DNA of 64,000 nt. It comes from Bacteroidota bacterium. Lineage in GTDB: Bacteria; Bacteroidota; Bacteroidia; Chitinophagales; Chitinophagaceae. Of this stretch, positions 23,670-36,946 are shown piece after piece (within the stretch, counting starts at the first letter, position 1; the number at the start of each line of letters is the position of its first letter). Both the position numbers and the translations under genes were made by a program. The notes below the pieces were generated by a model, which did no database searches, was not told the DNA's origin, and saw nothing but the letters and a program-made list of their open reading frames with translations. The DNA lies in assembly GCA_018267955.1 (NCBI GenBank), contig JAFDXL010000009.1, positions 398,717-462,716 of the forward strand. Reading direction: 5' to 3'.

Positions 23670-26600
23670 TCATCTAAAATCCCTCGAATGACCAAACAAC
23701 TCCGTTTGAACAGCATTAGCTGCACGCACCCTTGCATCCTGGTTGTGATAGCTGTCCATATCTTTTTCATCACCTCTTGCCAATGTTTGCACATCCGGCT
23801 CTTCGTTGGTTTGCGAAAGCTTTTTGAGTAATGGAGATAAATTATGACATCGTTGTACAATGACATGTATCACTTCATCTTCTATCTGTAATTTACCCTC
23901 TACCATTAGTAGCCGCGATTGTAGTATCTCCTTCCGGTATTTATCAAATAGTTTTTGAAACACTACCAGGTTGGCAATGCCGGTTTCATCCTCTATAGTA
24001 ATAAAACATATTCCACTGGCAGTACCAGGTCTTTGCCTAACCAATACAAGGCCAGCAACTTTCACTGTCATACCATCTGTAAGTTTTGATAAATCTGTCG
24101 TTGGGGTGATGTGCAGGGACGTCAATGCATCCCGTACAAAACTTACGGGGTGTGCTTTAAGAGATAAAGATGTAGCACTATAATCCTGTACTACATGTTC
24201 CGGTAAGCTCATCTCCGGTAATGAAATATCTTTTTCCAAAGCGCTTTCTGAAGCCTGTCCTTCATAGATACCGGTAGGTGTATCACTTAATGCAGCAACT
24301 TCCCATAAAGCTTTTCTCCTATCCAACCCTATCGACCTGAAGGCATCGGCATCTGCCAGCTTCTCTAATGTTACAAGAGAAACGCCTGTCTGGTATAATT
24401 GTGGTATATCCTTATACGGTTCAGCTCTTTTGTCAACAAGTAATTGTACCTCTTCCTGCTTTAGCCCGCCTACCTGCCGGAAACCAAGCCTTAATGCACA
24501 ATAGCTACCGCATATTTCTTCCAGTTGATTATCCCAATCTGAATAATTGATATCAGCGGGCCTCACCTCTACCCCATGTTTCTTTGCATCTATTACTATC
24601 TGCGCAGGTTGATAAAAGCCCATAGGCAAACTATTGAGCAATGCCGCAGCAAACACATCAGGATAAAAGCATTTGATCCATGAGGATACATACACCAATA
24701 AGGCAAAGCTGACTGCATGGCTTTCAGGAAAACCATAACTACCAAAACCTTCCAGTTGTCTGAATACCCGCTTTGCAAATTCTTCCTCATATCCATTGCC
24801 CACCATCCCATTTATAAGCTTTGTTTCCCAGTCGCTTACTTTACCCTTAGCCTTGAAGGTTGCCATGCTCCTGCGCAATCCATCAGCTTCAGCGGGTGTA
24901 AATCCGGCAGCTACAATAGCTATCTCCATAGCTTGTTCCTGGAATAAAGGCACTCCTAATGTTCTGCCAAGTATATCCTCTAGTTCTTTTGACGGATATG
25001 TTACCGGTTCTTCTCTATTACGCCTGCGCAGGTAGGGATGCACCATATCGCCTTGTATTGGCCCCGGCCTTACGATTGCCACTTCTATTACCAGGTCGTA
25101 AAATTCTCTGGGACGCAATCGTGGCAGCATAGACATCTGTGCCCTGCTCTCTATCTGGAACACGCCTATGGTATCTGCATGGCTTATCATTTCATACACA
25201 GCAGGATCATCTTGCGGAATATTAGCCAGGGTAAGATCCAGGTCGTAATGCTTTTTAGCCAGATCGAATGCTTTACGTATGCAGGTAAGCATACCAAGCG
25301 CTAATACGTCTACTTTCAAAAAGCCTAATGCTTCAATATCATCTTTATTCCATTCTATGCAGGTACGGTCTTCCATCCTTGCATTAAGGATAGGACATAG
25401 TTCTGTCAGCTTGCCTCTTGTTATCACAAAGCCTCCTGTATGCTGTCCTAATTGCCGCGGGAAACCAACATACTGCTCTGTAAGCTCCAGCACTTTCATC
25501 AAATGAGGGTCTTTTGCATTGAAGCCTTCTGCAGATATGCGCTCGCCTGCCATCCATTCATCATTAAATTCCCAGATAGATTTAGATAAGCGGTTAATAG
25601 CATCTACAGACATACCCATGGCTTTAGCCACATCCCTTATAGCGCCTTTATTATGTACCTGCGTTACCGTTGCCACGATGGCCGCCCTATCGCGGCCATA
25701 TTTCTCATATATGTATTGTATCACTTCTTCGCGTCGCTCGTGTTCAAAATCTACATCTATATCCGGTGGCTCATCTCTTGCATCGGACATGAAGCGGGCA
25801 AACAATAAATTGAATTTTGAAGGATCTACAGAAGTGATGCCTAAACAATAACAAATTACAGAATTAGCTGCTGATCCCCTGCCCTGGCATAGTATATTTT
25901 TACTTCGGGCAAAACGTACAAAATCGTATACGGTTAGAAAATAAGCAGCATAGTTTTTACGCCCCATAAATTCCAGCTCCATGTCAATAGTCGCCTTTAC
26001 TTTTTGAGGTATTTGTTCGCCAAATTTCTCCTTCGCTCCGATCCATGTAAGGTATTCTAACTCCTCCTGAGGCGTACGCCCTTCACTGGTGATCTCTTCG
26101 GGGTATACATATTCCAGTTCATCCAAAGAGAACTGGCAAGCCTTTGCTATCTGTTCCGCATTGGCAATGGCCTGTGGATATTGCGCAAACAAACGCAGCA
26201 TTTCTTTTTCGGGCTTTAGAAACCTTTCTGCATTTTGATGCAACTTGTAACCGGCATTATAAATGGTACATTTTTTGCGCACGCAGGTGAGCACGTCTTG
26301 TAATTCCCTTCGTTGCGGTATATGGTAATGCACATCATTGGTAGCTGCCAGGGGAATATGGTATTGTTCTGATAACTGTGCCAATCTGTATAATCTCTTA
26401 TTATCACCGGCCTGGTAAGTACGCATCATCCCCAGGTACAATTGGTTACCAAGAGCCTGGATATATTCCTCAACAGCTTGCTTGAAATCTGCATTAAAGT
26501 CAAATTGTGCATTTAATTGCAATGGTGGAACAACTATAAATAAAATCCCTGCAGCATGGCTAAATACATCTGCTTTATATAGTTGACATTTGCCTTTTTC

Positions 26601-26897
26601 AGTTCGTAGGTTACCGAGTGACAGTAAAGAAGATAATCTTGCATAAGCTTCTTTATTTGTAGGATAAGCTAATAAGGAAGGACCATCTGCAAGGTCTAAT
26701 CTGCATGCGGGAATAATATGAATATTATGTTTTCTCGCCGCTGCATGGGCGCGTACTATACCGGCAAAAGTATTGCGGTCTGTAATGGCTATTCGCTCAT
26801 ATCCTAATTCCGCCGCCTGCGCCACTAACTCTTCCGGGTGAGAAGCACCACGCAAAAAGCTGAAATTGGTTGTTACCTGTAGTTCTGTATATCCCAT
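23670..26897 (-). CDS. dnaE2: Error-prone DNA polymerase III alpha subunit DnaE2
   Basis: The protein has about 1075 residues. The PHP domain is N-terminal (YTELQVTTNFSFLRGASHPE). The polymerase active-site aspartates lie in PDIDVDFEHERREEV, with a third in FLKVDVLALGML. A C-terminal OB-fold (GLVLVRQRPGTASG, IANLVVFQKLFDKY) completes it. DnaE2 carries out mutagenic translesion synthesis together with ImuA and ImuB, whose genes lie directly upstream in the same order seen in many bacteria. I chose ATG 26897 (MGYTELQ), which matches the usual family start and lies 4 bases after the imuB stop. The frame is open upstream with ATGs at 26918 and 26990, but those would overlap imuB. Confidence 0.93.
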   Translation of the reverse strand: MGYTELQVTTNFSFLRGASHPEELVAQAAELGYERIAITDRNTFAGIVRAHAAARKHNIHIIPACRLDLADGPSLLAYPTNKEAYARLSSLLSLGNLRTEKGKCQLYKADVFSHAAGILFIVVPPLQLNAQFDFNADFKQAVEEYIQALGNQLYLGMMRTYQAGDNKRLYRLAQLSEQYHIPLAATNDVHYHIPQRRELQDVLTCVRKKCTIYNAGYKLHQNAERFLKPEKEMLRLFAQYPQAIANAEQIAKACQFSLDELEYVYPEEITSEGRTPQEELEYLTWIGAKEKFGEQIPQKVKATIDMELEFMGRKNYAAYFLTVYDFVRFARSKNILCQGRGSAANSVICYCLGITSVDPSKFNLLFARFMSDARDEPPDIDVDFEHERREEVIQYIYEKYGRDRAAIVATVTQVHNKGAIRDVAKAMGMSVDAINRLSKSIWEFNDEWMAGERISAEGFNAKDPHLMKVLELTEQYVGFPRQLGQHTGGFVITRGKLTELCPILNARMEDRTCIEWNKDDIEALGFLKVDVLALGMLTCIRKAFDLAKKHYDLDLTLANIPQDDPAVYEMISHADTIGVFQIESRAQMSMLPRLRPREFYDLVIEVAIVRPGPIQGDMVHPYLRRRNREEPVTYPSKELEDILGRTLGVPLFQEQAMEIAIVAAGFTPAEADGLRRSMATFKAKGKVSDWETKLINGMVGNGYEEEFAKRVFRQLEGFGSYGFPESHAVSFALLVYVSSWIKCFYPDVFAAALLNSLPMGFYQPAQIVIDAKKHGVEVRPADINYSDWDNQLEEICGSYCALRLGFRQVGGLKQEEVQLLVDKRAEPYKDIPQLYQTGVSLVTLEKLADADAFRSIGLDRRKALWEVAALSDTPTGIYEGQASESALEKDISLPEMSLPEHVVQDYSATSLSLKAHPVSFVRDALTSLHITPTTDLSKLTDGMTVKVAGLVLVRQRPGTASGICFITIEDETGIANLVVFQKLFDKYRKEILQSRLLMVEGKLQIEDEVIHVIVQRCHNLSPLLKKLSQTNEEPDVQTLARGDEKDMDSYHNQDARVRAANAVQTELFGHSRDFR

Positions 26898-26901
26898 AGC
26901 C

Positions 26902-28398
26902 TTATGCAAAATATCCATGAAGAAACCATTTGGGCTCTGCCTGTTCATAATGGCCTGCCCTGAACAGCCAATACCTGCATCCATTATCATCTTCTACACA
27001 ATAGTAATCTCGATAAAGCCCTTGTTCTATCCACCATTCCTGTTCTATACGTTCCGGGCCATCTGCTTTAGCTACACGATGCAGTACATCCTTATGTTTA
27101 AACAATATGGGCGGATAATCCGGTATAGCTACCGTTACTTCTATTTGCTCCGGTTGTGGTAACAAGTGTATAGGCCTTGGTAAGTCTTCTCTCCATGCAG
27201 TACCAGGTTGCTCTTCTAATGATAAAGCTTGTTTATAAGAACGTTCCGGCCAATAGTGCTCTGAAGGTAAGTAACGATGGATGGCCTTTTCACCAACCTT
27301 CACTGCAAGCCTGTCCAATAATTCTGCAAGCTGCATTTCCTTATCCTGACTGACATTCCACATTGCTTCCTGGCTGCTGATGAGCGGTTCTACTATGGGT
27401 GCTTCCAATACAAATAATTCTATGCCGAGGTCAGGTTCTATCTGGCCGGTCTTCAGTTCAAATAATTTATAAAGATGGCTGCTGTTGCGCGATGCTTTGG
27501 CAGTATTGATCTGGATTGCTTGTATATTACCATCCAGCCTGTAGCATTTAAACACAGCTATACGCAGGCCCATACTTTCATCTGCCAGCCGTTTACATAA
27601 TTGTTCCAGTAGTTCTTTTAAAGCTATCTCTATACCTGTTGCCGTTTTGATAGGTTCCAGGCAGGGCAGTCGTTCCTGGTAAGGCTCTATGGGGCATACC
27701 GGTACCAATGGCTCTATTTGTTGTCCTACGGCATAATCTAATTGTTGCAATAAGGATTCACCAAAGCGTCTGCGTAATGCCTTGCGTGGCATTTGTATAA
27801 AGCTGCGTATGTCTTTTAACCCGAGCTTGTGAAGGCGCTCTGCAATATTGCTTTCGATTCGCAATGCAGCAGGTGGCAATGGTAATAATGCTTCTATATG
27901 CTTACCGGGCTCTATGATTGGGTAGGCACTCCCATAACGTGATACTGCCCATGCAGCACCTATCGTATCAGCCATAGCTATACGCACATGGTAACCGAAT
28001 ACCCTGAGCCTGGTGAGCAGGTCTTTAAGATATGCAAGTTCCCCACCCCATAGATGCGCGCAGCCACTGGCATCCAGTATAATGCCATCCGCTCCGTCAA
28101 TAGCGGCTATGGGAGTGAAACGGATACACCATTCTGCCAATGCTTTGAGTAACCGGTGATCCCTACCCGGCTCTTCATCAAACACCTGCAGCTCCGGTAA
28201 TATAGCACGCCCATCGGCAACTACCATTCCGGTATATATACCGCTTGTGCAGGCTATGGGGTTTACAGCTTTTACGATCATCCTGCCGTGGTCAGGTGCA
28301 GCTATTACAAAGGGAATCTCTTTCAACTCCGGTTTGCGACGGGTGAACCAATCTGTTAGCAGATGACGAAACCATATTGCTACAAAACGCCTAGCCAT
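26902..28398 (-). CDS. imuB: ImuB, catalytically inactive Y-family polymerase homologue
   Basis: The protein has 498 residues. The start (RRFVAIWFRHLLTDWFTRR) corresponds to the Y-family motif I, but the metal-binding Asp and the SxDE motif of active DinB/UmuC enzymes are not present (AIDGADGIILDASG is found where SxDE is expected). This is the known signature of ImuB, a non-catalytic adaptor linking DnaE2 to the sliding clamp. Helix-hairpin-helix-like residues about 180-220 (RLHKLGLKDIRSFIQMP) and a C-terminal segment WWIEQGLYRDYYCVEDD are also typical. The gene starts 1 base after the imuA stop and ends 4 bases before the chosen dnaE2 start, so the three are co-expressed. Confidence 0.92.
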   Translation of the reverse strand: MARRFVAIWFRHLLTDWFTRRKPELKEIPFVIAAPDHGRMIVKAVNPIACTSGIYTGMVVADGRAILPELQVFDEEPGRDHRLLKALAEWCIRFTPIAAIDGADGIILDASGCAHLWGGELAYLKDLLTRLRVFGYHVRIAMADTIGAAWAVSRYGSAYPIIEPGKHIEALLPLPPAALRIESNIAERLHKLGLKDIRSFIQMPRKALRRRFGESLLQQLDYAVGQQIEPLVPVCPIEPYQERLPCLEPIKTATGIEIALKELLEQLCKRLADESMGLRIAVFKCYRLDGNIQAIQINTAKASRNSSHLYKLFELKTGQIEPDLGIELFVLEAPIVEPLISSQEAMWNVSQDKEMQLAELLDRLAVKVGEKAIHRYLPSEHYWPERSYKQALSLEEQPGTAWREDLPRPIHLLPQPEQIEVTVAIPDYPPILFKHKDVLHRVAKADGPERIEQEWWIEQGLYRDYYCVEDDNGCRYWLFRAGHYEQAEPKWFLHGYFA

Positions 28399-28399
28399 T

Positions 28400-29158
28400 T
28401 TATCCGGCTTTCAGCTTTTGAGGAATGGAAATAATATGCTGCCGGGTATCATATTCTTCAAATCCATTGCCATTCCATTGCAATTGCCAGCTGCCGGGTT
28501 TTCCGTTACGTACTTTCAAAAGATTTGCCTGCCAGTGAGGGTGACCTACACCGGGAAGCCCATCTAATATAGCGCTATGAATACTTCTGATCTTAAACCG
28601 GGAAACACAGGCGGTAATATTTTCTGTCTTTGGTTTATATCTATGAATAAAGCCTGTAACATGGCTTTGCTCCACTGCCAACTGCAGCCGACGGGATTCT
28701 TTAAAGGATAGTTCAGATAATATGCCTACAACAGCAGACACAGCCTGGCATTTAAGCGCTTCTTCTACTGCCCACAATATATCCTTATTACTTACTTCCA
28801 GGAAGATGATATGCTCCGGATCAATTCCAAAAAATTTAAGTGCCGGTGGAAATACAACTCTTGCGGATCCTACCCAAATACTATATCCGGATCTACCTAT
28901 CAGGTAGCTTAATATGCCGCTTATAAATCCATTTGTAGCGGCTGCATGTTCCGGCTCATGGCTGATGAATTCATGCACTGCACCTGTAGGAAAACTTTGA
29001 TTAGGAAAAGCAGTTTCAAAGGGGCCGATAGTATGCGTGATTGCATCATTTACTTTTTTAAACCGCTGCAAGCTGTATACCTCCTGCTGCAGCCTGGCAA
29101 TAATCTCTTGCTTTGCTTCAGCTTTATTGAAAAATGGTATTTTAGCGTTAACAGCCAT
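28400..29158 (-). CDS. imuA: ImuA, RecA-like accessory protein of the mutasome
   Basis: The protein has 252 residues and is related to the RecA/SulA-like family. It has the ImuA opening (LQQEVYSLQRFKK, then FPTGAVHEFI) and the segment YSIWVGSARVVFPPALKFFGI, which replaces the ATPase P-loop region. The segment DPEHIIFLEVSNKDILWAVEEAL is the family's best conserved part. ImuA interacts with ImuB and is needed for DNA-damage mutagenesis. It is the first gene of the imuA-imuB-dnaE2 operon. A repeated operator-like element and a promoter lie 16-62 bases upstream. Confidence 0.9.
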   Translation of the reverse strand: MAVNAKIPFFNKAEAKQEIIARLQQEVYSLQRFKKVNDAITHTIGPFETAFPNQSFPTGAVHEFISHEPEHAAATNGFISGILSYLIGRSGYSIWVGSARVVFPPALKFFGIDPEHIIFLEVSNKDILWAVEEALKCQAVSAVVGILSELSFKESRRLQLAVEQSHVTGFIHRYKPKTENITACVSRFKIRSIHSAILDGLPGVGHPHWQANLLKVRNGKPGSWQLQWNGNGFEEYDTRQHIISIPQKLKAG

Positions 29159-29173
29159 TATTGATTCTTATTC

Positions 29174-29220
29174 GTACAAATGTACAAATAAATAAAATAA
29201 ATCTGTACAAAAGAACAAAT
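29174..29220 (-). promoter_or_regulatory. imuA promoter overlapped by four GTACAAAT-type elements (candidate damage-response operator)
   Basis: On the plus strand the octamer GTACAAAT occurs at 29174-29181 and 29182-29189, GTACAAAA at 29205-29212, and GAACAAAT at 29213-29220. This makes two tandem pairs set 31 bases apart, about three helical turns. On the minus strand the first pair contains TACATTTG (29184-29177), a perfect TAnnTTTG -7 element, 19 bases from the imuA ATG. A repressor bound there would block the promoter. A LexA-like or other damage-responsive regulator is the natural candidate for an imuA-imuB-dnaE2 operon, but its identity is not shown. Confidence 0.6.
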
Positions 29221-31090: not shown

Positions 31091-34000
31091 ATGATGATAC
31101 AACAACCCACTTTGTCGGAATTGCTTTACAATCCCGCCATTAACTATGCTATGCAACAAAACCACGTACCTGTGGTAAGAAAATTAATTATTAAAAACGA
31201 TACAACTGAAGATTGGAGAGATATTACTGTTACGATTGATATAGAACCTGATTTCGCACATTCATGGCAATATCGTATTGAATCTATTCCTTCAGGAGGT
31301 ATTATTGAATTGGATGCGATACAGATCAGTATACGCCCCCAATTACTAGCGGAATTGACGGAAAGGATTTCAGGTAGCTTAATGCTGAAAGCTTTAATGG
31401 GCACGACTATTCTTTTCGAACAACGTTATCCTATGGATATACTTGCCTATGATCAGTGGAATGGTGTAAGTGTATTACCTGAGATGCTGGCAGCTTTTAT
31501 AACACCCAATCACCCTGAGATACCTAAGATCATTCGTCGTGCATCTGCAATTCTTGAACGTTGGACTGCTAACCCTTCTTTCGATAATTATCAAAGCCGC
31601 AACCCAGACCGGGTACGTAAACAAACGGCAGCCATTTATGAAGCAATTGCGGACCTACAAATTCTATATTGTACTGTGCCTGCATCTTTTGAAGAACAGG
31701 GACAACGTATTCGCCTTGCAGATGCAATTTTCAGTCAGAAATTAGGCAACTGCCTGGACATGTCATTACTCTATGCAGCTTGTTTAGAAGCTGTAGGGAT
31801 ACATCCTCTCGTTATTATCATAAAAGGGCATGCGTTCACAGGCGCCTGGCTGATTGATGAAACTTTCGCGGATCCGGTAAACGATGATGCCTCATTACTT
31901 ACTAAACGCAAGGCATCTGGAATTAATGAAATTACTTTAGTAGAAGCGACCTGTATGAATATGGGTAAGACAGCAGCTTTTGACGATGCTGTCCGTTTAG
32001 CGAACCAGCACTTACATAATAATGCGGATTTCGGACTATTTATAGATGTGAAACGAGCGCGTTTCAGTCGTATTCGTCCGCTGCCTTTACGAATAGCTAC
32101 CTCTAACGGATTTGAAATAATAGAAGAAAAACAGACGGTCGAACGTAATACAGGAATGCCTATTGCATTAGATGAAACATTATTGGTAGCTGAAGGCATG
32201 GCCGGTCCAGTGGGCAAGCAACAATTGTGGGAACGAAAACTACTCGACCTTACATTACGCAATAACCTCCTCAACCTGCGTGTCACAAAAGGAACACTTC
32301 AATTTATTAGTATCAACCCTGCAAAACTGGAAGATGCATTAGCAAGCGGTGACGAATTTCAAATCCTGCCAAAGCCATCCGATTGGGATAACCCACATCG
32401 TAGCGCAGGTCTTTACCAAACTGTTCATGCTTCTGATCCTATGTCAGAACTGGTGCAGCATGAACTTACACAAAAACGTCTTAGAAGCTATCTAAGCGAC
32501 GGAGAGTTAATTACAAATCTTACTGCGCTCTATCGCTCGTCCCGTTTAGCTATTGAGGAAAATGGCGCCAGTACATTATATATTGCGTTAGGATTTTTGA
32601 AGTGGTATGAAACTGTAAACAGCGAAGTGCCAAGGTATGCTCCTATATTGTTATTGCCGGTTGAGATAGTTCGTAAATCTGCAAGACAAGGTTTTGTGAT
32701 TCGCGGACGTGAAGAAGAGCCAATGCTTAACGTGACACTTCTGGAAAAACTGAGACAAGATTATGGGATCAACGTTAGTGGGTTGGAAGTATTACCACGT
32801 GATAATAGCGGCGTGGATGTTCCGGTGATATTCAATATTATCCGTAGAGCTATCATGGCCCAAAGCCGATGGGATGTAGAAGAGCAGGTCGTATTAGGCA
32901 CTTTCTCCTTTAGTAAATTTATCCTTTGGAACGATATTCATAATAATAGTCAGCACCTACTAAAAAATAAAATTGTTGCAAGCCTTGTACATAATCAGTT
33001 ACAATGGCAGGTTGTACCGGAAGTGGAACATGAACTTGATGTTTTCTTAAATCCATCAACTATAGCGTTACCTATTGCAACAGATTCATCGCAGTTAGAG
33101 GCTATTATTAGTAGTACAGAAGGAAAAAGCTTTGTGCTACATGGTCCACCGGGAACCGGAAAGTCTCAAACTATCACTAACATTATCGCAGCAGCATTGC
33201 ACGCAGGCAAAAAAGTCCTGTTCGTTGCAGCCAAAAAAGCTGCGTTGGACGTCGTGCAATCAAGATTGGAGAGTATAGGAATAAGTCCTTTCTGTTTGGA
33301 ATTACACTCCAATAAAGCGAAGAAGACATCAATAATAGAACAATTAAAGCATGCATCAGAAGTGGCAAAGAAAGCCACTCCCCCAACTTTCGAAACTGAA
33401 GCGCAACGTCTGAGTTCTTTGCGTTCAGAACTGAATGAATATGTAAAAGCATTGCATTACACATGGCCATTCGGCATTTCATTATATGACGCATTTACCC
33501 GTTATAATGTACAAAATACAGGGGTTTTAAAGCTTACGTTTCCGCATACTTTCATTGTATCACTTACTAATGCACAAATAGATGCGTTGAATGACATAGT
33601 TGCAGAAATGGAAATAATAACGGCAAGCATTGATCAACCTAACCGGCATTTACTTCGCGACGTAAAAGTAATTCAGTACTCTCCGCAGATTAAAGATGAT
33701 ATAGCTGCCGCGCTTAAGAATTACTTATCTGCGCTCCAAAATGTGGAAGCTGTTGTAGAGAAAACCACCAGACATATTTGCATAGAAAATTCATCTCTGA
33801 CGAAAATCCAGACAGGGCATTTGCGGTATCTGTCAAAAACTATTCTGGAGTTGCCCGACATTCCAGCCTCATTGTTGATAATAGATTCGCCAGAACAGTT
33901 TTTTGTACGTATCCAAGAATTGACTAAACATGGACGGAAGCGTGACGAGTTAAAAGCTGCTTTGCTTCAGAATTTTAGCAAAGGTATTCTTACCGTAAAT

Positions 34001-36946
34001 GCAGAAATTTTACTAAACGAATGGAATGCCGCAAAAAATAAGTGGTTCCTACCTCGTTTATTGGGACAAAACAAGATAGTGAAAGCTATTAAGCTTTTTC
34101 GGAATAATGGAATATTAAACAAAGCTGATATTCCACAAGTACTGCAATCCGTTATTGCCTATAGAGATGAACAAAACATACTGGATAAAGCTACCGATAT
34201 CCGCGGTACAGCCGGCGCTCTTTGGCGTGATGAAAACTGTGATTGGGATACCCTGGACAACTTTTGTGACAAACTTACCGAGCTTTTCAAGGTAGCAGTA
34301 GCGCTTACCGGACCAACGTCCTTAAATACCTGGCGTCAGCGTTTCGCTAAGGCAAGTGGTGACAGTACTACTATGTTCATCTCCGCTTTTGGAAAAGATT
34401 TAATGCAGTTGGAAAAGCAATTGCAAGAGCTTGAAAATACTGAAGCAGCATTAACATCCTTAATCGGTAAAAACGCTATTTCTTCTGATGACAGTACGTC
34501 CTGGCTACAGAATAATATTATTACTGCTCAACGACAACAATCCGGAATTGATCTGCTAAAGGATTGGACGTCCTGGACTAATATAAGGGATAAGGCTAAA
34601 GCCTCTGGCTTAGACGTGGTTGTAGCTGCATATGAAATTGGGACAATAACATCAGCTGAAATTGGTATTCAATACCGCAAAGCTCTTTATAAAGCTATAG
34701 CAGAGTATATTATAGGTCAGTCTCCTGCACTGGCATCATTCAATAGCGCTTTATTTGAAGATAAGATCGCCCGTTTTAAGAATATTAGCGAGAGCTTTGA
34801 AAAGCTCACTCGTGAGGAATTATATGCCAGATTGGCTGCCAAAATTCCTGATTTTAGTATTGAAGCGTCGCAAAGTTCGGAAGTTGGAATTTTACAAAAA
34901 GCAATTCGCAGCAATGGTCGTGCTATGAGTATCCGTAAATTATTTGACTCTATTCCCAATTTACTTCCACGCCTCACACCTTGTATGCTCATGAGCCCTA
35001 TTTCTGTAGCACAATATTTTGACGCAGCTAAAGCACATTTCGACCTTGTCATATTTGATGAAGCATCTCAGATGCCAACATGTGAAGCCGTTGGTGCAAT
35101 GGCTCGAGGTTCGAATGTAATAGTAGTGGGTGATCCCAAACAAATGCCGCCTACATCTTTCTTTGCTACAGCCAATCGTGACGAAGACAATCCTGAGGAA
35201 GATCTGGAAAGCATACTGGATGATTGCCTGGCATTATCAATGCCATCTAAACATTTACTATGGCATTATAGAAGTAAACATGAGAGTCTAATTGCTTTCT
35301 CCAATGCAAAATATTATGAAAACAAACTATTTACATTTCCTTCCACAGATGACTTAGCAACTAAAGTTTCGTTCGTTCATGTACAAGGCTTTTATGATAA
35401 GGGGAAAACACGACAAAATAAGGCAGAGGCTATTGCAATAGTTGCAGAAATATTACGTCGTCTAGCCCATCCCGACCTTTCCAAACGGAGCATGGGTGTT
35501 GTTACTTTTAGCTCGGTGCAACAAAATTTGATAGAAGATATACTTACGGAAGAATTCCGCAAAGCGCCACATTTGGAGAAGATCGCTTTAGAAGCTGAAG
35601 AGCCTCTATTTATTAAAAACCTGGAAAATGTGCAAGGCGATGAGCGTGATGTTATTTTATTTTCCATTTGCTATGGGCCTGATGAAACGGGAAAAGTAAG
35701 TCTGAACTTTGGCCCATTGAATCGTGAGGGTGGCTGGCGTAGGCTTAATGTTGCCGTGAGTCGTGCGCGATATGAAATGACTATCTTTTCTACATTACTT
35801 GCAGACGGTATTGATCTGGCACGAACAAGTGCTGAAGGTGTTGCTGGCTTAAAGGCATTCCTTGCCTTTGCAGAAAAGGGTAAAGCTGCTTTACCTGGGA
35901 AAATCGGACATACTGCTCCTCAAACAGCCGGTTTGGAAACAACAATTGCAGAGGCTATCAGGGCTAAGGGTTACGATGTGCACTTGTCAATAGGCTGTTC
36001 TGGCTACCGTGTCGACATTGGCATAGTACATCCCGAGCATCCATCTGAGTATTTGCTGGGTATTCTCTGCGATGGTAATAATTATAAGGCTTCAAAAACG
36101 GCTCGTGATCGTGTAGTGGTACAAGAAAGCGTACTCCGGTCGCTCGGCTGGAAATTGCACCGGGTATGGAGTCTCGACTGGTGGGAAAAACCAGATTTAG
36201 TACTAACTGGTATCATACAAGCTATAGAAAACGCAAAAACATCTACAGAGACATTGGCTCCAAAGGCAAACCTAGCATTACCGGACGTAGAAACTATACC
36301 ATCCACTGCTCCATCTGCGGAATTTACTCCGCTTAACAATGCAGTAGCATCTTTGCAACCAGTTCTATCTCCAAAATCGGATTATATAGAATCCTACGAA
36401 GTATGCCATCTACTCCCCGTAGCAACAGCGTCTACTGATGCCTTTTTGCAGCCTTATAATGGTATGCGTATACGCGAACAAATTGACCAGGTGTTGGAGA
36501 AAGAGTCTCCAATCAACAAGTCTTTACTATATCAAAGGATTCTGACAGCTTGGGGCATTGGCCGTGCAGGTGGGCGTATTGCAGCTCATCTGGATAATCT
36601 TATAGGTAATATGGGAATCAGGCAGATTAAACATGGAAAACAAGTTTTCCTGTGGAAAATGACGCAGCATCCTAGCACTTATAAAGTATACCGCTTGTCC
36701 CAAAATGATGCGCAGAAACGAGATGCAGAAGACTTGCCACCTGAAGAAATCGCTGTTGCGATACGCCATATTCTTAAAGCTCAATTGAGTTTGCCTAAAG
36801 CCGATTTAATTCGTGAGGGTGCACGTCTGTTTGGATACGCGCGTTTAGGTGCTAAAGTAGATGAAGCCATGCAAATCGGTATCGATGTCGCCATAAAGCA
36901 TGGCTTTGTTATCACAGAGGGGAACCGTATTGTTTATAAAGAATGA
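31091..36946 (+). CDS. DUF4011-superfamily 1 helicase-Vsr-like nuclease (Hhe-type defence protein)
   Basis: The protein has 1951 residues. N-terminal beta-rich part; transglutaminase-like segment with Cys221 (GNCLDMSLLYAA) and His247 (KGHAFTGAW); DUF4011-like motif WERKLLDLTLRNNLLNL near 380; helicase Walker A GPPGTGKS at 685-692; Walker B DEASQ at 1323; GDPKQMPP; motif VI LNVAVSRAR near 1555. A Vsr/MTES_1575-like nuclease follows (about 1615-1700: ETTIAEAIRAKGYDV, YRVDIGI, WKLHRVWSLDWW). A DUF3320-like tail closes the protein (AWGIGRAGGRIAAHLDNL). This order matches the single-gene antiviral system that I recall being named Hhe (DUF4011-helicase-Vsr). It would act on foreign DNA in the cytoplasm. 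The gene is transcribed away from rmuC, and its codon use looks slightly more AT-rich than its neighbours, as for many defence genes. Confidence 0.85.
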   Translation: MMIQQPTLSELLYNPAINYAMQQNHVPVVRKLIIKNDTTEDWRDITVTIDIEPDFAHSWQYRIESIPSGGIIELDAIQISIRPQLLAELTERISGSLMLKALMGTTILFEQRYPMDILAYDQWNGVSVLPEMLAAFITPNHPEIPKIIRRASAILERWTANPSFDNYQSRNPDRVRKQTAAIYEAIADLQILYCTVPASFEEQGQRIRLADAIFSQKLGNCLDMSLLYAACLEAVGIHPLVIIIKGHAFTGAWLIDETFADPVNDDASLLTKRKASGINEITLVEATCMNMGKTAAFDDAVRLANQHLHNNADFGLFIDVKRARFSRIRPLPLRIATSNGFEIIEEKQTVERNTGMPIALDETLLVAEGMAGPVGKQQLWERKLLDLTLRNNLLNLRVTKGTLQFISINPAKLEDALASGDEFQILPKPSDWDNPHRSAGLYQTVHASDPMSELVQHELTQKRLRSYLSDGELITNLTALYRSSRLAIEENGASTLYIALGFLKWYETVNSEVPRYAPILLLPVEIVRKSARQGFVIRGREEEPMLNVTLLEKLRQDYGINVSGLEVLPRDNSGVDVPVIFNIIRRAIMAQSRWDVEEQVVLGTFSFSKFILWNDIHNNSQHLLKNKIVASLVHNQLQWQVVPEVEHELDVFLNPSTIALPIATDSSQLEAIISSTEGKSFVLHGPPGTGKSQTITNIIAAALHAGKKVLFVAAKKAALDVVQSRLESIGISPFCLELHSNKAKKTSIIEQLKHASEVAKKATPPTFETEAQRLSSLRSELNEYVKALHYTWPFGISLYDAFTRYNVQNTGVLKLTFPHTFIVSLTNAQIDALNDIVAEMEIITASIDQPNRHLLRDVKVIQYSPQIKDDIAAALKNYLSALQNVEAVVEKTTRHICIENSSLTKIQTGHLRYLSKTILELPDIPASLLIIDSPEQFFVRIQELTKHGRKRDELKAALLQNFSKGILTVNAEILLNEWNAAKNKWFLPRLLGQNKIVKAIKLFRNNGILNKADIPQVLQSVIAYRDEQNILDKATDIRGTAGALWRDENCDWDTLDNFCDKLTELFKVAVALTGPTSLNTWRQRFAKASGDSTTMFISAFGKDLMQLEKQLQELENTEAALTSLIGKNAISSDDSTSWLQNNIITAQRQQSGIDLLKDWTSWTNIRDKAKASGLDVVVAAYEIGTITSAEIGIQYRKALYKAIAEYIIGQSPALASFNSALFEDKIARFKNISESFEKLTREELYARLAAKIPDFSIEASQSSEVGILQKAIRSNGRAMSIRKLFDSIPNLLPRLTPCMLMSPISVAQYFDAAKAHFDLVIFDEASQMPTCEAVGAMARGSNVIVVGDPKQMPPTSFFATANRDEDNPEEDLESILDDCLALSMPSKHLLWHYRSKHESLIAFSNAKYYENKLFTFPSTDDLATKVSFVHVQGFYDKGKTRQNKAEAIAIVAEILRRLAHPDLSKRSMGVVTFSSVQQNLIEDILTEEFRKAPHLEKIALEAEEPLFIKNLENVQGDERDVILFSICYGPDETGKVSLNFGPLNREGGWRRLNVAVSRARYEMTIFSTLLADGIDLARTSAEGVAGLKAFLAFAEKGKAALPGKIGHTAPQTAGLETTIAEAIRAKGYDVHLSIGCSGYRVDIGIVHPEHPSEYLLGILCDGNNYKASKTARDRVVVQESVLRSLGWKLHRVWSLDWWEKPDLVLTGIIQAIENAKTSTETLAPKANLALPDVETIPSTAPSAEFTPLNNAVASLQPVLSPKSDYIESYEVCHLLPVATASTDAFLQPYNGMRIREQIDQVLEKESPINKSLLYQRILTAWGIGRAGGRIAAHLDNLIGNMGIRQIKHGKQVFLWKMTQHPSTYKVYRLSQNDAQKRDAEDLPPEEIAVAIRHILKAQLSLPKADLIREGARLFGYARLGAKVDEAMQIGIDVAIKHGFVITEGNRIVYKE

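Follow-up and report, generated by a model that had tools for sequence, protein, structure and literature searches.

The 64,000-nucleotide stretch of DNA analyzed here (the window) very probably contains a double SOS operator at 29172-29218, in front of imuA. Sequence comparison points to a repressor with a Peptidase_S24 domain (the S24 repressor) as the protein that binds it and runs the SOS regulon. The genes imuA, imuB, and dnaE2 are on one strand, with ends overlapping or abutting. The dyads begin 14 and 45 bp upstream of the imuA start codon (29158, - strand). The features are as follows.

29203..29218: operator 2 (distal), CTGTACAAAAGAACAA; 10/12 matches to TTGTAC-N4-GTACAA; 31 bp from operator 1.
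29172..29187: operator 1 (proximal), TCGTACAAATGTACAA; 11/12 matches to TTGTAC-N4-GTACAA; dyad conserved in relatives.
29184-29177, - strand: predicted -7 promoter element, TACATTTG, a perfect TAnnTTTG, inside operator 1.
28400..29158, - strand: imuA (252 aa); NF033429, E 1.7e-17, 63.9 bits, under the cut-off of 150.
26902..28398, - strand: imuB (498 aa, Y-family polymerase-like); PF00817, 43.6 bits, above the cut-off.
23670..26990, - strand: dnaE2 (1106 aa, error-prone DNA polymerase); NF004225, 1389 bits, above the cut-off.

A large helicase gene is also present near the operon (window 31091-36946; NF058533, anti-phage ProA, 2267 bits, above the cut-off).

The preliminary description had reported four octamer-type elements before imuA, in two pairs three helical turns apart, overlapping a perfect -7 element. 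All of these were found at 29174-29220. Exact copies of GTACAAAT are at 29174-29181 and 29182-29189, and one-mismatch copies are at 29205-29212 (GTACAAAA) and 29213-29220 (GAACAAAT). The starts of the two pairs are 31 bp apart. Four nonoverlapping octamers within 47 bp occurred once in the window and in 0/100 first-order simulated windows. Single octamers with at most one mismatch were not clearly enriched in the window (92 versus 76.6 +/- 9.4, with 7/100 shuffles as high).

The unit is a 16-bp dyad, TTGTAC-N4-GTACAA, with a mostly AAAT core, and two copies precede imuA. The octamer repeat appears within the dyad because GTAC is self-complementary. The two tandem octamer pairs were placed correctly, but the octamers are not the half-sites they were taken for. 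When 103 sites were chosen by ACAWWTGT alone, the left outer letters were T (75), T (89), and G (76), and the right outer letters were C (54), A (100), and A (69). Since the outer letters are conserved on both sides under selection of the inner 8-mer only, the element is a dyad, and four tandem half-sites were ruled out as the unit. Among 94 sites chosen by the arms, 71 contained the oriented AAAT core.

The exact palindrome is TTGTACAATTGTACAA. Its usual single departure creates TACATTTG, a -7 element on one strand (the -7 consensus is TAnnTTTG). A -7 element overlaps the operator in 8/12 imuA promoters and in 14/15 S24 promoters having operators. The overlap is found in only 3/15 recA promoters, and in 13/15 of these promoters a -7 element is 24-35 bp downstream of the operator's start. 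At both imuA and the S24 gene, operator and promoter appear to be integrated with one another. It is extremely improbable that the repeats are only promoter elements (TTTG or TAnnTTTG pieces of Bacteroidota promoters) with no operator. TTTGTAC is similar to such pieces, and TACATTTG is a perfect -7 element. However, a promoter is not expected to show a 16-bp dyad with both arms conserved. The dyad also marks damage genes, whereas another box is present in 54 of the 59 other recA promoters of the family.

The imuA operator pairs have spacings of 22, 22, 31, 32, 32, 39, 41, 41, 43, and 43 bp. The values cluster around integral numbers of helical turns (p 0.0015, falling to 0.023 once near-duplicates are collapsed), which weakly suggests cooperative dimers on one helix face.

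The motif was expected to recur before other damage genes, and it was found throughout the genus. It precedes recA in 15/15 genomes, imuA in 12/12 genes (nine genomes), the S24 gene in 14/14 cases, and a second Y-family polymerase gene in 13/13. This comparison supports the SOS operator that had been proposed before imuA. For recA, the dyad was present within 336 bp at 9/12 or more matches in every genome and at 10/12 or more in 14 (dinucleotide-shuffle means, 3.2 and 0.40). At the common recA position, -68 to -82, sites reached at least 9/12 in 15/15 genomes and at least 10/12 in 11. The site there scores only 9 in G001, G002, G004, and G006. Chance alone yields roughly 0.2 matches of 9/12 per 336 bp, and a lone weak site therefore carries little weight. 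All imuA genes had a dyad of at least 9/12, and 11 had at least 11/12 (shuffle means, 2.36 and 0.04). The second polymerase genes all had at least 10/12 (shuffle mean, 0.40). We term this polymerase UmuC-like; for the one scanned, the best NCBIfam matches were Pol IV models, below the cut-off. The genus contained 34 Y-family matches, of which 12 ImuB were left out of the promoter count. Ordinary dinB had a dyad in 0/8 cases, a count that chance can account for (shuffle mean, 1.52 at 9/12 or more). A different dinB in G007 has one dyad in common with a divergent SRAP gene. SRAP is present in 3/15 genus genomes, with a 10/12 site before one. In G003, a dyad precedes a UDG-linked-type radical SAM gene (TIGR03916). 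Simulation, shuffles, and conservation rule out a chance origin of the sites.

In the organism's own genome (G000), GTACAAATGTACAAA with up to two mismatches had 19 matches versus 15 for the reversed pattern, so most of its matches are chance. The exact match is the window site, and two one-mismatch matches precede recA and the second imuA. Two two-mismatch matches begin 66 and 47 bp upstream of the sole Peptidase_S24 gene. TTGTACAAATGTACAA with up to three mismatches had 88 matches versus 58 for the reversed pattern. Seven sites were within one mismatch of TTGTACAAATGTACAA: at recA, imuA1, imuA2, the S24 gene, two genes for products resembling terminase small subunits (TerS-like genes), and a leftover copy (remnant) of one TerS-like gene region. 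The arms alone, with up to two mismatches, were hardly enriched (219 versus 197 for the reversed pattern). Allowing no more than one arm mismatch left 19 sites; the AAAT core was present in 7, the ones considered as operators, and absent from the other 12. The second Y-family polymerase gene has two 10/12 sites, 23 bp apart. The second imuA-imuB copy (L065, G000:C10:1031244-1031996) is 95% identical over 2.3 kb and has a double operator.

Orphan TerS-like genes are found directly behind a dyad at L075 (G000:C8:80056), L081 (G000:C10:209979), L263, and L272. L075 and L081 were called by their match to PHROG 51 (E 1.7e-06 and 1.2e-13 for the two products, with L081 read from the ATG at 1534); L263 and L272 were called by eye. 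The surroundings of L081, inspected by eye, contain housekeeping-looking genes only, and phage genes were not seen. A phage search with one TerS-like protein returned no match.

Genome-wide, with up to two mismatches, the 15 genus genomes contained 214 sites versus 62 for the reversed pattern, and 15/15 were above the control. The 39 other family genomes contained 295 versus 188, and 30/39 were above the control. Near-palindromic sites score on both strands in these counts. The two-mismatch sites in relatives were read in a chosen part. Strong dyads recurrently precede single AAA_25 or DUF3987 genes in several relatives (L246, L247, L249, L251, L255, L260, L264, L269, L275, and L276). L246, L247, and L251 were tested against Pfam, and the rest were assigned by resemblance. 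These genes look as if they were selfish or phage derived and used the host SOS operator. No integrase was seen by eye in the one context inspected (L329).

The sole Peptidase_S24 match in the own genome is a 239-aa protein encoded on contig C9, outside the window. An S24 protein of MKUO01000005.1 (Bacteroidetes bacterium 43-93) is 100% identical to it. Thirteen of the 14 genus genes have three operators, spaced by 41 and 19 bp, and the control region in G003 has two dyads. This triple was found in 0/1600 shuffles. It is also present in G064 (another genus), in Taibaiella sp. BROCD030 (L112), and in two further MAGs (L110 and L116). The operators are 777-837 bp from the S24 start in G007 and 291-351 bp in G004. 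G001 (84% complete) contains dyad sites, and its S24 ortholog was not found. The Paraflavitalea proteins L114 and L115 have no dyads. With the S24 ortholog as the query, no second S24 protein was matched in 10/14 ortholog-bearing genus genomes. Extra S24 proteins were found in G003, G005, G011, and G013; one of those in G005 (L113) does not have the operator triple.

The S24 control region looks like a phage immunity region. A 71-aa protein is encoded divergently from the S24 gene in 12/14 genus loci. It has no Pfam match, so its HTH was read by eye. A 125-aa protein adjoining the repressor (L013:3336-3713) was matched in 13/16 loci (L010-L025) and has no Pfam match. Two neighbors of the S24 gene have no Pfam or PHROG match. 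It is very unlikely that the dyad is the operator of another regulator, such as the 71-aa protein, with the S24 gene merely a target. The two genes do have one three-operator region in common. Cro-like proteins generally bind the operators that their CI partners use, which counts in favor of the 71-aa protein. However, it had no match in G005, G003, or the Taibaiella-type loci, all of which retain the operators, and its HTH is seen by eye only. The preliminary description had named the strain's LexA or an S24-family repressor as the protein to test for binding. The likely ligand is the single S24 repressor, which differs from the published LexA of the family.

The S24 repressor matched PF00717 in 18/18 members. 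A105 and G106 (cleavage site) and S144 and K185 (catalytic dyad) are invariant in 18/18 aligned proteins; L116 was left out of the alignment (in-frame stops). Across the 18 members, 12 families were matched at E 0.1; HTH_3 (PF01381) was not one of them, and neither was a LexA DNA-binding family. HTH_3 was matched by two CTAA-box regulators and one near-genus regulator scanned. The structure model contains five short N-terminal helices, with helices only in the N terminus, and an S24 beta fold (pLDDT 71.8, moderate). The best E-values in the fold search were for the lambda-186 hybrid, lambda, and 186 repressors, followed by LexA; across the full length, their superposition is poor (TM about 0.33). 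Ten phage records matched in sequence, none above 33% identity and all confined to the C-terminal 53-58%. A PDB sequence search with the repressor returned no match.

The SOS box of the Chitinophagaceae is CTAA-N5-TTAG, according to the main text of PMC8565304. A perfect copy was present in 54/59 other family recA promoters (shuffle mean, 0.56) and before recA in 0/15 genomes of the genus. The survey covered 75 family genomes outside the genus, from which G044, G047, G057, and G063 were dropped for having no usable upstream sequence, and the order-level sample was four genomes. The family was assigned to the Chitinophagaceae from its named relatives, Taibaiella, Flavipsychrobacter, and Paraflavitalea. 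No exact CTAA-N5-TTAG was found in recA (15), imuA (12), S24 (16), or second-polymerase (13) promoters. GGA-N5-TCC was found once among these four promoter sets, at recA of G010. The recA dyad is present in the genus and in G064. Eleven nearer genera (G056, G083, G040, G076, G031, G070, G019, G034, G060, G025, and G015) have neither box before recA; there was one weak 9/12 dyad and one 7/8 CTAA match. Most nearer genera carry S24 regulators of two further types (L194-L204). Shared dyads before 10 near regulators were A/T-rich candidates only. The clade's operator differs from that of most of the family, so this bacterial group seems to have exchanged one damage switch for another.

The system resembles the noncanonical LexA of Bacteroidetes as described in the main text of PMC8565304. 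Both have an S24 repressor with an Ala-Gly site and a Ser-Lys dyad, a repressor gene preceded by its own box, and two or more sites per promoter. Both regulons contain recA, imuA-imuB-dnaE2, and Y-family polymerases. The published regulon also contains rSAM-UDG and SRAP, which are found here in single relatives (G003 and G007, respectively). The noncanonical groups described there have CTAA-N5-TTAG or GGA-N5-TCC, whereas the operator here is TTGTAC-N4-GTACAA. The repressor here also has no HTH_3 match and is separate in the tree from the CTAA-box regulators of the family. Its control region holds three operators, and a small gene diverges from it. The Elizabethkingia anophelis site TTAC-AAATT-GTAA (PMC8565304, main text) is likewise a palindrome with TAC/GTA arms and an A-rich core, and it lies upstream of genes for an S24 regulator and a polymerase. 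It differs in its N5 spacer and shorter arms. Exact TTAC-N5-GTAA was found in one tested promoter, that of imuA in G001. No published TTGTAC-N4-GTACAA operator was found in the leading literature matches. The terms "gtac" and "Taibaiella" are absent from the main text of PMC8565304.

Phage CI repressors (lambda and 186) share the helical N-terminal domain and the S24 domain. They also share three operators between a divergent repressor gene and a small HTH-like gene, and paired operators. Unlike in those phages, no adjacent gene here was recognized as phage, and the dyads are at recA and polymerase genes. Canonical LexA has a winged-helix DNA-binding domain, whereas no such family was matched here and the modelled N terminus has helices only. 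As expected for an SOS master repressor, predicted operators precede the repressor gene, recA, and the genes for error-prone polymerases.

We infer the ligand, cooperativity, cleavage, and damage induction from sequence. Dimers of the S24 repressor would bind the two TTGTAC-N4-GTACAA dyads, probably cooperatively, on one helix face. The bound repressor would cover the -7 element of the imuA-imuB-dnaE2 promoter. Upon DNA damage, the repressor, prompted by RecA filaments, would cut itself at Ala105-Gly106 through Ser144/Lys185. Cleavage would lift repression of recA, imuA-imuB-dnaE2, the repressor's own gene, and the second Y-family polymerase gene. In the genus and its Taibaiella-type relatives, this repressor and operator would replace the noncanonical LexA system with CTAA-N5-TTAG that most of the family has.

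PMC8565304 puts forward duplication and the capture of phage repressors as routes to a take-over, and it reports that motifs diverged after paralogy. Here, a phage-type S24 repressor that is not orthologous to the family LexA probably took over the whole SOS regulon. In this genome, the repressor is the sole S24 protein, CTAA-N5-TTAG is gone, the new operators are at the same kinds of genes, and the control region is phage-like. In an S24-domain tree of 38 proteins, a long branch (95/85) splits the new clade from the CTAA-box regulators. The tree includes eight CTAA-box regulators of the family and excludes the reference proteins of PMC8565304. Its new side includes regulators of Paraflavitalea and G069. 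The phage LoVE row, which was poorly trimmed, sits on a very long branch. As to origin only, the S24 repressor could be a fast-evolving ortholog of the family CTAA-N5-TTAG LexA whose operator drifted, which we consider unlikely. Both have the S24 domain, the published motif divergence after paralogy fits, and the tree program warns that long branches meet, so that the joining is possibly false. However, the two groups are on opposite sides of the long branch, and the new type is without HTH_3. G069 also has two S24 proteins from the new side together with a CTAA-box regulator.

The evolutionary question here is how SOS networks come to swap their master repressor and operator. Within one family, most members have the old box, 11 nearer genera have neither, and one clade combines a new box with a new repressor. 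With these three states in one family, the take-over may be traceable through living relatives. If a phage-type repressor did take over, the event would count as a separate and recent capture like those depicted in Figure 9 of PMC8565304. The predicted operators also provide a first sketch of the damage regulon for a little-studied environmental group.
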